Shown here in pieces: positions 6,346-12,035 of a stretch of DNA of 30,992 nucleotides. The notes below the pieces were generated by a model. That model saw only the letters and a list, made by a program, of their open reading frames with translations, was not told where the DNA came from and did not search any database. The translations under genes were made by a program, and so were the position numbers. Each line of letters begins with the position of its first letter. Positions within the stretch are counted from its first letter, which is position 1. The stretch lies in the IMG/VR virus record IMGVR_UViG_3300021961_000390, positions 1 through 30,992 of that record. One strand, given 5' to 3'. The stretch is from a virus.

Positions 6346-6723
6346 CTATATCGGATCGGTGTTCGCTGATGCGGGATTGTCGGGAATGTTTTTGTAGGCG
6401 TTCCAAAGTTTCAAGAACTCGGTCATTGTCATGATCGCATACCAAGTGTCCACTTCGACTGCACCTTGTTTCTTCACGGCACAAACACCGTGATTGGTGC
6501 CACGGTTTTTCTGCTCGATTTCTAGTTCTTTCAACCAGCAACCGATGTCGTGTCGGCGTTGGTCTTTGACTTCTACGGTCAGGTCTTCGACGCCGTCTAT
6601 GTCGCCGCGGTCATCCGACCATCCGCTTCTACTTCTTTCGGCTCTTGGATGTCCGTGGTCTTGGAAGAACTTCGCCACCATCAATTCGGCGCGCGTACCT
6701 TTTCTTCTTTGTGGATTTGACAT
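6346..6723 (-). CDS. Resolvase-like PD-(D/E)XK nuclease
   Basis: 125 residues from the ATG at 6723. It opens MSNPQRRKGTRAELMVAKFF, with E13 in the first helix, then GDIDG (D41, D43) and EVK (E51, K53). This is the E...D...ExK order of archaeal Holliday-junction-resolvase-like phage nucleases. Longer in-frame starts exist (ATG 6756, TTG 6768), but homologous proteins as I know them begin at MSNP and AGGA lies close by. The first 95 nt overlap the end of the WhiB gene in another frame, which is unusual in this otherwise minimally overlapping genome. Confidence 0.8.
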   Translation of the reverse strand: MSNPQRRKGTRAELMVAKFFQDHGHPRAERSRSGWSDDRGDIDGVEDLTVEVKDQRRHDIGCWLKELEIEQKNRGTNHGVCAVKKQGAVEVDTWYAIMTMTEFLKLWNAYKNIPDNPASANTDPI

Positions 6724-7012
6724 GAGTTCCTGCTCTCCTTCGTCGTCGGGTTTCATTCCTTCGTTCAACTGTTGTCAGTCCGCCCCACACGCCGACACAA
6801 TCGTTCGCTATCGCAAAGTCTAGACAAGATTGACGCACCACGCAGATGTCGCAAAGTTTCTTCGCTTCACGCACCGCATGTAGATATCTTTCGTGGAAGA
6901 AGATGTCGGTGCCTTCGCCACGACATGTTCCATATTGTTGCCATTCTGGTCGGAGCAATTCGAATACATTCTTCGACTCCGACCAGACGTCAACTATTCC
7001 GTATTCGCCCAT
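6629..7012 (-). CDS. whiB: WhiB-family iron-sulfur transcription factor
   Basis: 127 residues. The four cluster ligands are C30 (GTCRG), C54, C57 (LCDIC) and C63 (QSCLDF), followed by the G-V-W-G-G turn at 74-78 and a long basic tail (RRRRR, STKKKRYARR) for DNA binding. WhiB proteins bind a 4Fe-4S cluster and contact the principal sigma factor. Mycobacteriophage TM4 carries one that represses host whiB2 and blocks superinfection, so a host-takeover role is plausible here. The start at 7012 overlaps the upstream stop (TAATG). The last 95 nt overlap the nuclease gene, and the tail is longer than the core domain needs. Confidence 0.93.
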   Translation of the reverse strand: MGEYGIVDVWSESKNVFELLRPEWQQYGTCRGEGTDIFFHERYLHAVREAKKLCDICVVRQSCLDFAIANDCVGVWGGLTTVERRNETRRRRRAGTHVKSTKKKRYARRIDGGEVLPRPRTSKSRKK

Positions 7013-7194
7013 TATTTAATTTCTTTAGTCCAGCGACGAACATGGAACATTGCATAGAAGTTGACGATTGCGTAGATGAATATCTCTACGCCGTTCGCCG
7101 GACTTTCTTGCGGCAACCTTGGCATGAATAACAACATCATCCATCCCACGATTATGAACGCCAATGTGAACATTATTTTTTCTTGCGGTTTCAT
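7012..7194 (-). CDS. Small two-helix membrane protein
   Basis: 60 residues with two hydrophobic segments, IMFTLAFIIVGWMMLLFM (about 7-24) and VEIFIYAIVNFYAMF (about 36-50), and a basic end. A strong AAGGAGGA lies before the ATG at 7194. It is co-translated with WhiB (TAATG). Function unknown; it could be an extra holin or an exclusion protein. Confidence 0.72.
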   Translation of the reverse strand: MKPQEKIMFTLAFIIVGWMMLLFMPRLPQESPANGVEIFIYAIVNFYAMFHVRRWTKEIK

Positions 7195-7239
7195 TCTTCC
7201 TCCTTGGTTTAGTAACTCGCCTGTATCAGTTATAGGATA

Positions 7240-7812: not shown

Positions 7813-7840
7813 CGTGGTCCTTTCGTAAGTGCAGGAATAA

Positions 7841-7868
7841 CGCAACCAGAAGGAGGTGACTGGTTGCG
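7841..7868 (-). promoter_or_regulatory. Leader hairpin with anti-Shine-Dalgarno loop
   Basis: A perfect 9-bp stem (CGCAACCAG paired with CTGGTTGCG) encloses a 10-nt loop that reads TCACCTCCTT on the mRNA strand, identical to the 3' end of bacterial 16S rRNA. It sits about 29 nt upstream of the transglycosylase ATG in a 125-nt non-coding leader, followed by TTATT. It may regulate translation, act as a terminator, or mimic rRNA. Read on the plus strand the loop is a perfect Shine-Dalgarno sequence. Confidence 0.6.
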
Positions 7869-7937
7869 GTGCTACATCAACCCTAGTGGGGAGCGCACCT
7901 TTCAACCTTAGCCGATGGCACCCGATTTTCGCTAGTT

Positions 7938-8201
7938 TTAGCGGTCTTGAGAATTAATTTCTAGATCCATCAACACTTTGATGCCGACAACCATCTTCAC
8001 GGGTATGTGCAGAACGTGGTCGATGTTGTCTTCGTTGCGTGATTGGTAGATGGTGACGTGGTCAGGTTTGCCGCCATCGGATGTGGCGAGCAGGAACCCG
8101 ACTGTTTGGACGATTGCTGGGTCGAGGTCTAGGTCTTTGATGTTGACCCATGATTCGGATCCGCTGTGCGCATCATGCCAGGTGACAAGTACGGCGGTCA
8201 C
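7938..8201 (-). CDS. Small conserved phage protein, unknown function
   Basis: 87 residues. The pattern W-H-D-A near residue 8, SWVNIKDLDLD, VQTVGFLLA, VTIYQS and HIPVKMVVGIKVL is one I associate with small beta-rich phage proteins of unknown function. Start is GTG at 8201, overlapping the upstream stop as GTGA. It sits between lysis genes, which is context only. Confidence 0.7.
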   Translation of the reverse strand: MTAVLVTWHDAHSGSESWVNIKDLDLDPAIVQTVGFLLATSDGGKPDHVTIYQSRNEDNIDHVLHIPVKMVVGIKVLMDLEINSQDR

Positions 8202-9393: not shown

Positions 9394-10839
9394 CTAATTT
9401 TCTCTTCTGCGCAGGCCCGCTCCTACCGCAACAAGTGTATTAGAAACAGCAACCAATGTTCTACGCTGACCGACAGGAATGGTCTGCCCAACCATCTGGA
9501 ACGAATCGAATACGCCCGCGAACACGTTGATTGTGTCTTGGAATGCTTGCTTGACTTTTGTTGGTGCTTCGTTCAGGACTGCGACGAGTTCGTCTGCTTG
9601 TTCGACTGTGATTTCTTCTACGACTAGTTCTTCGAATATCTGTTCGGCTTGGTCTTGGGTGATCGCCGCCAAGACTTCAGGACTTGATGCGATACTGACT
9701 GCCTGGTCAGAAGATAGTGCGGTTGTCAAGATCTGCTCGATGGCTGCGACTACTTGTGCCGGTGACGCATCTTTCAACTCGTCTAGCACTTCGGCGACCT
9801 TCTCGTCTGTGATCGGTTGTTCAGGCTTGATGTCAAGTAGCGTGGTGGTTGATGAGATCTCTGTTGTTGGTGTTGTCGTTTGTGGGATATCTGTTTCTTG
9901 CGTCGGCTCTGATGTTGGCACATTTGTTTCGTCGGACAGAGTTAGAGGCGGAACAGAAGAAGTTGGATCAGTTGTATTGGGAAGAGGTAAGGAAGGATCG
10001 GTTGTAGATGTTTCGAGAATCGTGGTGGATGTTGTGGGTTCGGGTTCAGGCAAGACGGTTGTGGTCGTTGTGGATTGCTCTGGTAAAGAAGTTGACGAAC
10101 TACTAGTTGTGGTTTGAGGAGGAGTGTATGGTGCTTGCGTTGTTGTCGGAGCTGGTGCAGTTGTTGTGGTCGTGGTTGTCGTGGTACTTGTCGTTGATGT
10201 GGTTGTGTCTATCTGAACTTGTTCGGTGGTTGTGGTCGTTTCTTGAGGAAGGGTTGTTGTAGATGAAGAAGTTGAAGTCGTTGTTGTGGATTCTTCAACT
10301 GTTGTCGATGTCGGTGGCAGCGTTGTTGTGGTTGTCGTGGTCGTGGATGTTGTGGTGGTCGTTGACGAAGTAGTGGTAGTCGACGAAGTAGTTGTGGTCG
10401 CAGGGTTGTTTATGACCGCATCAACGCTTCCCTTCTCACCGTACAAGCAATAGCCGATTGGGTCGGGTCTGCCGACACAAGCATTAGAACCCGCCTTCAC
10501 TTTGAATCGCAAGTTCTCGCCGGTGTAGTTGTATATCCATGATCCGAATGTGTAGGCATGGTTCTCCGCTTCTGTCCACACCGCCCAACCTCCTGACTCG
10601 ACTCCGTCTGTCAGTTTGTAGAACTCGACAACATAGATGTCAATGCGGTCATAGTTGCTGACTTCGGGTTCATCCCACTTGACGGTGATGCCGTTGTTGG
10701 CTGCTGGTTCGGTTGTCAGGTTTTGTGGTGCGTTGTAGTACGGATTCGACGGAACTTCAATCGCCGATACAACAGTCGGCCAGAACGCGAACAGGATCGC
10801 TGGTAGCGGTATAAGCCACCTTGTTAGATTGCGACCCAC
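9394..10839 (-). CDS. Secreted Fn3-like protein with Thr-rich linker
   Basis: 481 residues. A signal peptide (RWLIPLPAILFAFWPTVVSA, to about 26) is followed by a fibronectin-III-like domain at about 30-145 (PQNLTTEPAANNGITVKWDE; IDIYVVEFYKL). A mucin-like linker from about 147 to 345 consists mostly of Thr, Ser and Pro. A helical domain (ASPAQVVAAIEQI; QAEQIFEELV) comes next, and the end is a hydrophobic stretch plus RRR (TLVAVSNTLVAVGAGLRRR), like a membrane or wall anchor. Start is GTG at 10839 with poor ribosome-binding sequence. It looks like a host-type cell-surface protein. It may be a virion adhesin or be displayed on infected cells. Confidence 0.82.
   Translation of the reverse strand: MGRNLTRWLIPLPAILFAFWPTVVSAIEVPSNPYYNAPQNLTTEPAANNGITVKWDEPEVSNYDRIDIYVVEFYKLTDGVESGGWAVWTEAENHAYTFGSWIYNYTGENLRFKVKAGSNACVGRPDPIGYCLYGEKGSVDAVINNPATTTTSSTTTTSSTTTTTSTTTTTTTTLPPTSTTVEESTTTTSTSSSTTTLPQETTTTTEQVQIDTTTSTTSTTTTTTTTTAPAPTTTQAPYTPPQTTTSSSSTSLPEQSTTTTTVLPEPEPTTSTTILETSTTDPSLPLPNTTDPTSSVPPLTLSDETNVPTSEPTQETDIPQTTTPTTEISSTTTLLDIKPEQPITDEKVAEVLDELKDASPAQVVAAIEQILTTALSSDQAVSIASSPEVLAAITQDQAEQIFEELVVEEITVEQADELVAVLNEAPTKVKQAFQDTINVFAGVFDSFQMVGQTIPVGQRRTLVAVSNTLVAVGAGLRRREN
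10140..10410 (-). repeat. ACC/ACT codon repeats (poly-Thr linker)
   Basis: Low-complexity stretch of Thr codons with occasional Ser, within the secreted Fn3-like gene. Synonymous codons are mixed, so the repeat is kept at protein level rather than being a simple DNA microsatellite. Likely an O-glycosylated or stiff spacer. Confidence 0.8.
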
Positions 10840-10842
10840 ACT

Positions 10843-11139
10843 TTAAGACTCGGCAGGTTCTTCAACTACAGGTTCTTCAACTACAGGTGCAACAAACTCG
10901 TCAGCAACAGGGTCATAGGTGTAACCGATACCTGCGTATGTGCCACGAAAGTTTCCGTTGTAAGAAGTGCGTTTACAAGTCAAGCCTGAGTGCCACGGTT
11001 GGTTCTCGTAGAATTGTTCCCACGCTTCAGTCGAACCACCAACTTCTACGCCGTTATCTAGTTGCGTAACTGTTTCATCAACGCCCGTGATTACTTTCAC
11101 GACAATGTTGTTGCTATCTATAAGTGCGTAGTGTGCCAT
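10843..11139 (-). CDS. Small conserved tail-region protein
   Basis: 98 residues from the ATG at 11139, overlapping the Gly-rich fibre stop (TAATG). It reads MAHYALIDSNNIVVKVITGV, then WEQFYENQPW, LTCKRTSYNG and RGTYAGIGYTYDP, ending in a VVEEP repeat. The same order (MAHYA, ID-N-VV, CKRTSYN, AGIGYTYD) is found in many marine and freshwater phages next to tail-fibre genes. Probably a minor virion protein; exact role unknown. Confidence 0.78.
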   Translation of the reverse strand: MAHYALIDSNNIVVKVITGVDETVTQLDNGVEVGGSTEAWEQFYENQPWHSGLTCKRTSYNGNFRGTYAGIGYTYDPVADEFVAPVVEEPVVEEPAES

Positions 11140-12035
11140 TATGACCAACTCACATTCCCTGAACCAGCAGTAATTGAAACGACTGTATCAGTTCCGTCTA
11201 TTACTGATGATGATGTTAAGCCTGCACCAACAGTTATATTAAGCGTGTTTGAGTAACGGAAAATGACTATACCTGAACCGCCTGCTGCGCCCTGCCCAGT
11301 CGTGTTGCTTTGCCTTCGTGCGCCACCGCCACCGCCACCAGTATTGACTGTGCCTGCTGTTCCGTTGTTGTTGCTTGTGCCGCCTGCGCCACCTCCGCCT
11401 GATCCGCCACTTCCTGCTGTGCCATTACCGCCACCGCCACCGCCACCAGCATAATCAACTGATGAGCCTGTTATTGAAGACGATTGCCCAGCACCACCAT
11501 TACCACCGTCAGAGCCACCACTAACATTTGTGCCGACTGCGCCTGCGCCACCACCGCCAGCCCCACCGAATGAGTTGGCACTTTGACCGCCATTATTGCC
11601 CTGCGAAGGACTTGTCGCTGGCGTGTTTCCAGTTCCACCAGTATTCGTTCCCGAACCACTTGCACCGCCACCACCGCCACCCGAACCACCGTTGAGACCA
11701 GAACTAAATCCGTTTGCGCCACCGCCACCGCCACCAGCAGATGTGATAGTAGAAAAAACTGAACTACTACCAGAGCCACCTCTAGCGGTGCTGCCACCGC
11801 TGACATTAGTTCCTGCACCACCACCGCCGATTGTGACGGTGTAATTTGTGTCAGCATCAATAGCAAATGCTGTGTCTGTTCTAAATCCACCGCCACCGCC
11901 ACCAGCGCCTTGTGAAGCACCGCCACCGCCACCACCTGCAACAACAAGAACATCAACGACAAAAGGATAAGAAAAAGTATTTCCCCAACTTGATACCGCT
12001 TGCCCTACCCGTGTGCGAGAACCGTATCTAGACAT
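11139..12035 (-). CDS. Glycine-rich tail fibre/adhesin
   Basis: 298 residues, with runs of Gly broken by Ser, Asn, Thr and Ala from about residue 32 to 245. FSYPFVVDVLVVAGGGGGG opens the repeat region and GGSGIVIFRYS closes it; that end box is typical of phage Gly-rich fibres. Polyglycine-II sandwich packing, as in phage S16 adhesin gp38, is the known structural precedent. It should help recognise host surface. TAAGG lies 9 nt upstream of the ATG. The repeats also make long shadow frames, which I left out. Confidence 0.83.
   Translation of the reverse strand: MSRYGSRTRVGQAVSSWGNTFSYPFVVDVLVVAGGGGGGASQGAGGGGGGFRTDTAFAIDADTNYTVTIGGGGAGTNVSGGSTARGGSGSSSVFSTITSAGGGGGGANGFSSGLNGGSGGGGGGASGSGTNTGGTGNTPATSPSQGNNGGQSANSFGGAGGGGAGAVGTNVSGGSDGGNGGAGQSSSITGSSVDYAGGGGGGGNGTAGSGGSGGGGAGGTSNNNGTAGTVNTGGGGGGARRQSNTTGQGAAGGSGIVIFRYSNTLNITVGAGLTSSSVIDGTDTVVSITAGSGNVSWS

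Follow-up and report, generated by a model that had tools for sequence, protein, structure and literature searches.

A two-hairpin leader with an anti-Shine-Dalgarno-like loop upstream of a lysozyme-like gene in uncultured, probably actinobacterial phages

The window, by which we mean the whole analysed stretch of 30,992 nucleotides of viral DNA, carries P0001 (7240..7812, minus strand), whose translation of 190 aa has a signal-peptide-like start and resembles secreted lysozymes or transglycosylases. P0001 matches the Pfam family SLT_3 below threshold (E 0.07), and the proteins that occupy the same place in two more distant clades match it better (clade B, E 5e-6; clade C, E 9e-4). This putative enzyme assignment is drawn from the sub-threshold domain match, the position of the gene and these counterparts. 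The AlphaFold2 model of P0001 was poor (pLDDT 53) and was left out of the conclusions. A profile search of PDB sequences with P0001 gave no match, the phage collection contained no match to the window or to P0001, and neither a copy of the leader pattern described below nor a relative of P0001 was found in genome_contigs.

The likely genes flanking the leader all lie on the minus strand. Next in the operon is the gene of a small membrane protein of 60 aa (7012..7194, minus), which is holin-like by position only. Two genes downstream of the enzyme a WhiB-family gene was observed (6629-7012), and its presence suggests that the host of these phages is probably actinobacterial. Upstream of the leader, a conserved 87-aa protein is encoded at 7938..8201 (minus), and this syntenic marker led to clades B and C. 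Right behind the enzyme stop codon a block, TATCCTATAACTGATACAGG (7220-7239), is kept in most of the clade and could form a small hairpin. The stretch that separates the tail genes from the lysis region encodes a protein that looks secreted and has a long Thr/Ser tract (9394-10839), as well as a Gly-rich repeat protein (11139-12035).

In the leader of P0001 the earlier note had described a hairpin, here called P2 (7841..7868, minus), as a perfect 9-bp stem with a 10-nt loop on the mRNA strand, and both sequence and fold agree with this description. Read on the minus (mRNA) strand P2 is CGCAACCAG-TCACCTCCTT-CTGGTTGCG; the plus strand reads cgcaaccag (7841-7849), aaggaggtga (7850-7859, the loop) and ctggttgcg (7860-7868). 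The last seven bases of the loop (7850..7859, minus; UCACCUCCUU as RNA) are CCTCCTT (7850-7856), which is invariant in all lineages found. The minimum-energy fold of the window leader includes P2, the loop is ~100% unpaired in the ensemble of that leader, and 28 nt separate the end of the hairpin from the enzyme start codon downstream (ATG, 7812-7810, minus). AAGGAGGTGA occurs once in the 31 kb window vs 0.02 expected occurrences. The single-sequence folding energy of the hairpin region is unremarkable (z -0.9), and the conclusion that P2 is not a chance structure is based on comparative evidence instead.

The observation of this hairpin was correct, yet understated: P2 is preceded by another hairpin, and the two together make up the leader. 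The first of them, P1 (7868..7899, minus; GGTGC-GC-TC-CCC-ACTA-GGG-TT-GA-TGTA-GCACC), was recognised by fold and comparison; it is the 5' hairpin, abuts P2 and is interrupted on the 3' side by a bulge of two pyrimidines. Just before P1 lies the -10-like element TAAGGT (TANNNT; 7905..7910, minus), which is invariant in the clade and may have promoter activity. To judge by this arrangement, the transcript probably starts at the base of P1, just after TAAGGT, in which case the RNA begins with P1 and continues directly into P2. Upstream of TAAGGT a palindrome, CGCTA-nnnn-TAGCG (7930-7943), with a variable loop is conserved in most relatives; it could be the terminator of the upstream gene or an operator of this promoter. 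An upstream ORF within the leader (ATG TAG) was considered and rejected, as it is not conserved.

The comparative data are assembled metagenomic viral contigs throughout. A search with P0001 found 33 viral contigs, of which 28 (L001-L025, L027-L029) carry the complete leader; pattern scans contributed two further leader contigs (L034, L040), giving a total of about 30. Within this clade the 5' arm of P2 is CGCAACCAG, CGCAACTCAG, CGCATCAAG or CGCAACCAAG, with matching 3' arms, and the loop is TCACCTCCTT everywhere except in L023 (TTACCTCCTT). The stem has 9 bp in the window (CGCAACCAG/CTGGTTGCG) and, in some relatives, 10. It has diverged through paired substitutions and through paired insertions that lengthen both arms together, while the loop stays constant. 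Most leader columns are invariant, compared with only 16% of the fourfold-degenerate sites in the enzyme gene. Three contigs (L014, L018, L019) keep the leader and have ~0.7 kb of extra sequence between the enzyme and small membrane protein genes, which in L014 appears GIY-YIG-like by eye.

In more distant relatives of P0001 (L026, L031, L103-L150) the leaders are different ones and contain no loop of this kind. L026 has the catalytic domain in common with P0001, but neither the signal peptide nor the leader: on this 98-kb phage contig (8001-8543; also in L097) a similar catalytic domain follows another signal peptide. The distribution of this domain in L026 and L097 suggests domain exchange between phages. 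A CCTCC hairpin after the L026 enzyme gene is probably unrelated, and the matches of a 16-mer scan in L053, L054, L056, L058-L060, L064 and L066 are chance-like and lack the leader. Among L103-L150 a different leader recurs in the last ~100 nt before the enzyme start (e.g. CATAGGCAGG...CCTGTTGYCCTATCCACC...AGGAG), forming in several of these distant relatives a bulged hairpin close to the SD; it has no Rfam match and is possibly a second leader family.

The two-hairpin architecture was found in four lineages, namely the window's clade, L101, clade B and clade C. In L101, whose protein shares 62% identity, P2 is CGCAACCAC-TCACCTCCTT-GTGGTTGCG, with a swapped closing pair and an unchanged loop, next to a P1 whose sequence is wholly unlike that of the window. 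For clades B and C the 87-aa protein was used as a syntenic probe, followed by a mechanical scan for hairpins with CCTCC-type loops in all fetched loci. P2 is CGCACACCT-[C/T]CCCCTCCTT-GGGTGTGCG in clade B (L253-L256, L260, L262-L264) and CGCATCAGTT-TCCTCCTT-GGCTGATGCG in clade C, which is represented by one contig (L274). Both clades keep P1, P2 and CCTCCTT at the same locus on different stems, and their closing U.G pairs can form only on the mRNA (minus) strand. P1 also recurs with a different sequence in each of these lineages (L101; L253 etc.; L274, where its fold lies 1 kcal above the MFE), and just before it stands an equivalent -10-like site (TAGGGT in L101, TAGACT in clade B, TAGGCT in clade C). 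The gene that follows in clades B and C encodes a secreted lysozyme-like protein that is unlike P0001 but matches SLT_3, and is itself followed by a small membrane protein, as in the window; in clade C a WhiB-like protein (by eye) comes next, in the identical order. The statement of the earlier note that the loop equals the 3' end of 16S rRNA holds for the window's clade and L101, and in the distant lineages applies to CCUCCUU only, the last seven bases of the loop, which all lineages have in common.

The earlier note had looked to relatives for stem covariation around an invariant loop, and this is what they display. In a hand-made alignment of nine distinct P2 types pairing was retained in 84/84 cells, six of the ten stem pairs vary with compensation, CCTCCTT is constant, and the pairing score was not reached in any of 2000 shuffles. 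For the structure of the whole leader in the clade alignment (A5), four pairs have changed on both sides, a number as high in 0/500 shuffles, and sliding the partners lowers pairing from 99% to 38-49%. A covariance model (R1) was built from 13 clade sequences only, leaving out L101 and clades B and C; searched against 377 kb, it found L101 (E 4.5e-12), eight clade B loci (E 8e-4 to 9e-3) and clade C L274 (E 3.5e-3) ahead of the next match (E 4.7), all E-values being rough because calibration was shortened. We thus find that a covarying structure has been conserved in front of one kind of gene, as is characteristic of a cis-regulatory structured leader. None of the 4227 Rfam families matched the leader at its gathering threshold, whether the query came from the window or from relatives in any of the lineages, and such a leader is nowhere described in the literature searched. 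The leader is apparently an undescribed RNA element of uncultured, probably actinobacterial phages.

The covarying stem and fixed loop fit a loop that is selected for pairing with SD sequences. As far as sequence comparison can indicate, we see about an even chance that the leader controls translation in cis, its anti-SD-mimic loop pairing either with the SD of its own gene or with that of the next. P2 would then be the effector half of a structured ~95-nt 5' leader RNA, and the target of control would be translation of the phage lysis-type enzyme operon. The loop displays CCUCCUU, a copy of the ribosomal anti-SD, directly adjoining the 3' arm of P2, and so placed it would be able to pair with an SD on the same mRNA in competition with the 30S.

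The nearest candidate partner is the core AAGGA of the enzyme's own SD (GAAAGGACC; 7818..7822, minus; invariant in the clade), ~20 nt downstream. Pairing there would produce an H-type pseudoknot, a topology that we judged by inspection, and could lower or time synthesis of the enzyme. In the window's clade the predicted pairing of loop UCCUU with AAGGA comprises 5 bp at -4.6 kcal/mol, a value that about 10% of shuffled linkers equal, and the loop-SD pairs gain no support from covariation because they are invariant within the clade. AAGGA is also the own SD in L101, where the pairing is likewise 5 bp, and in clade B; clade C has AAAAGAG, and own-SD pairing is lost there (-2.9). Two other partners of the loop region were rejected: the P1 segment GGGUUGA, which would form a bulged helix with the loop (-4.5 kcal/mol), is missing in other lineages, and in L101 an alternative fold (UCCUU with the SD) lies within 0.5 kcal of the P2 fold but is not general.

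The strongest nearby partner would be the SD of the next, membrane-protein gene, which is mostly AAGGAGG and would allow 7 bp. In the window this AAGGAGG (7199..7205, minus) is a 7-bp complement of the P2 loop at -10.9 kcal/mol; across the window's clade, L101 and clade C the values range from -8.0 to -11.3 kcal/mol, and in clade B (AAGGAGGG) from -13.4 to -13.8 kcal/mol. Strong complementarity is also seen where an inserted gene intervenes (L014, L018, L019). By complementarity to the loop this SD is third of the 41 starts in the window. Complementarity is weak evidence by itself, because any functional SD necessarily complements this loop. A strong SD may moreover just mean high expression of the next gene, and its strength therefore does not settle the partner.

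Pairing with SDs need not be confined to the same mRNA, as the leader or a processed fragment of it could act in trans in the manner of the C-rich-loop sRNAs and lower the translation of further mRNAs, from the phage or from its host. The unpaired loop offers seven bases complementary to the consensus SD, the SDs of several window genes complement it at -8 to -12 kcal/mol, and Gram-positive sRNAs are known to aim UCCC/CUCCC loops at SDs (PMC4132741). We nevertheless consider such a role unlikely. P2 is present in a single copy per contig, always at the same locus before the same kind of gene, and the scanned contigs contained neither a terminator after P2 nor the independent RNA or free-standing sRNA copies by which an SD-targeting trans sRNA would be recognised. 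It is quite improbable, in our estimate, that the loop instead binds a protein recognising the 16S 3' end (Era, an anti-SD toxin nuclease or a ribosomal protein) and turns the leader into a sensor or decoy. This would agree with the identity of the window loop to the 16S 3' end, with GAUCACCUCC, which is the 16S site of Era according to the Era papers, and with the actinobacterial toxin RelE1, which cuts beside the anti-SD (PMC12620021). The distant lineages, however, lack the UCA part (CCCCCUCCUU, UCCCCUCCUU, UCCUCCUU), and therefore keep neither the Era motif nor the RelE1 site; judged from these loops, the retention of CCUCCUU alone makes it less likely that the loop imitates rRNA for proteins that bind 16S. 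One mRNA would also be unlikely to titrate factors of rRNA-like abundance.

Two further alternatives, which take in the terminator and plus-strand readings of the earlier note, concern the hairpin apart from SD pairing in the mRNA, and comparison with relatives speaks against both. We regard a transcription terminator or attenuator as highly improbable: P2 is a stable intergenic stem followed by TTATT in the window, but an intrinsic terminator has a GC-rich hairpin with a U tract right behind it, where the window offers no more than TTATT, and relatives neither keep this nor have a U tract (CGTCATGACC, CGTTACCC, CGATATAT). Termination would not need a fixed 10-nt loop, P2 is missing from the list of the terminator scan, and the element lies between the promoter-like site and the gene, at a distance of 28 nt from the start codon. 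There is just as slight a chance that P2 acts as DNA (an operator or cruciform), or that a plus-strand transcript presents a perfect SD in the loop. An inverted repeat near a promoter-like site would suit the former, against which stand the asymmetry of the conserved loop and an arm length that varies by paired insertions. For the latter, AAGGAGG is followed by TTG or ATG at good spacing in many relatives; the short ORF behind AAGGAGGTGA is unconserved, however, with stops in L022 and L023 and an unrelated sequence in L101, and the closing U.G pairs of clades B and C require RNA of the minus strand.

Returning to translational control in cis, which we prefer, a more tentative possibility is that the anti-SD copy encoded in the mRNA inhibits translation competitively from within the message. 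Since an SD would be recognised by the loop in the way the 30S recognises it, the leader would report the supply of free ribosomes and release translation of the lysis gene accordingly, with P1 as scaffold or sensor, a role that is a guess. If this is true, the leader would represent an undescribed RNA family in several lineages of uncultured actinophages. If the loop competes with 16S rRNA for the SD, the inhibitor would duplicate the very sequence with which the ribosome reads messages, and sensitivity to ribosome supply should therefore be directly measurable by loop/SD swaps. The leader is a testable RNA element that may time the attack on the cell wall in uncultured, probably actinobacterial phages.

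A functional precedent is found in T4, where a leader structure of gene e (lysozyme) hides the ribosome binding site and lowers early translation (PMC3014915). Here, too, a leader RNA structure stands before a lysozyme-like phage gene. In T4, however, the longer early transcripts fold the SD itself into a hairpin, whereas the leader described here has a separate upstream hairpin with a conserved anti-SD loop beside a second conserved hairpin, and sequestration by it is putative. The SAM-II and preQ1 riboswitches are leaders in which an H-type pseudoknot sequesters the SD. As in these and in the T4 gene 32 pseudoknot, the part of the loop that adjoins the 3' arm could form a helix with an SD further downstream and stack on the stem; unlike them, the phage leader has no Rfam match, and its second helix would be only 5 bp long, invariant and missing in clade C. 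For the loop itself the precedent is given by LhrC, RNAIII and RsaE, C-rich-loop sRNAs of Gram-positive bacteria that aim a UCCC loop core at SDs (PMC4132741). With these it has in common a C-rich hairpin loop complementary to SDs, but while they are separate trans RNAs, this loop belongs to an mRNA leader fixed before one gene and contains a full 7-nt anti-SD.
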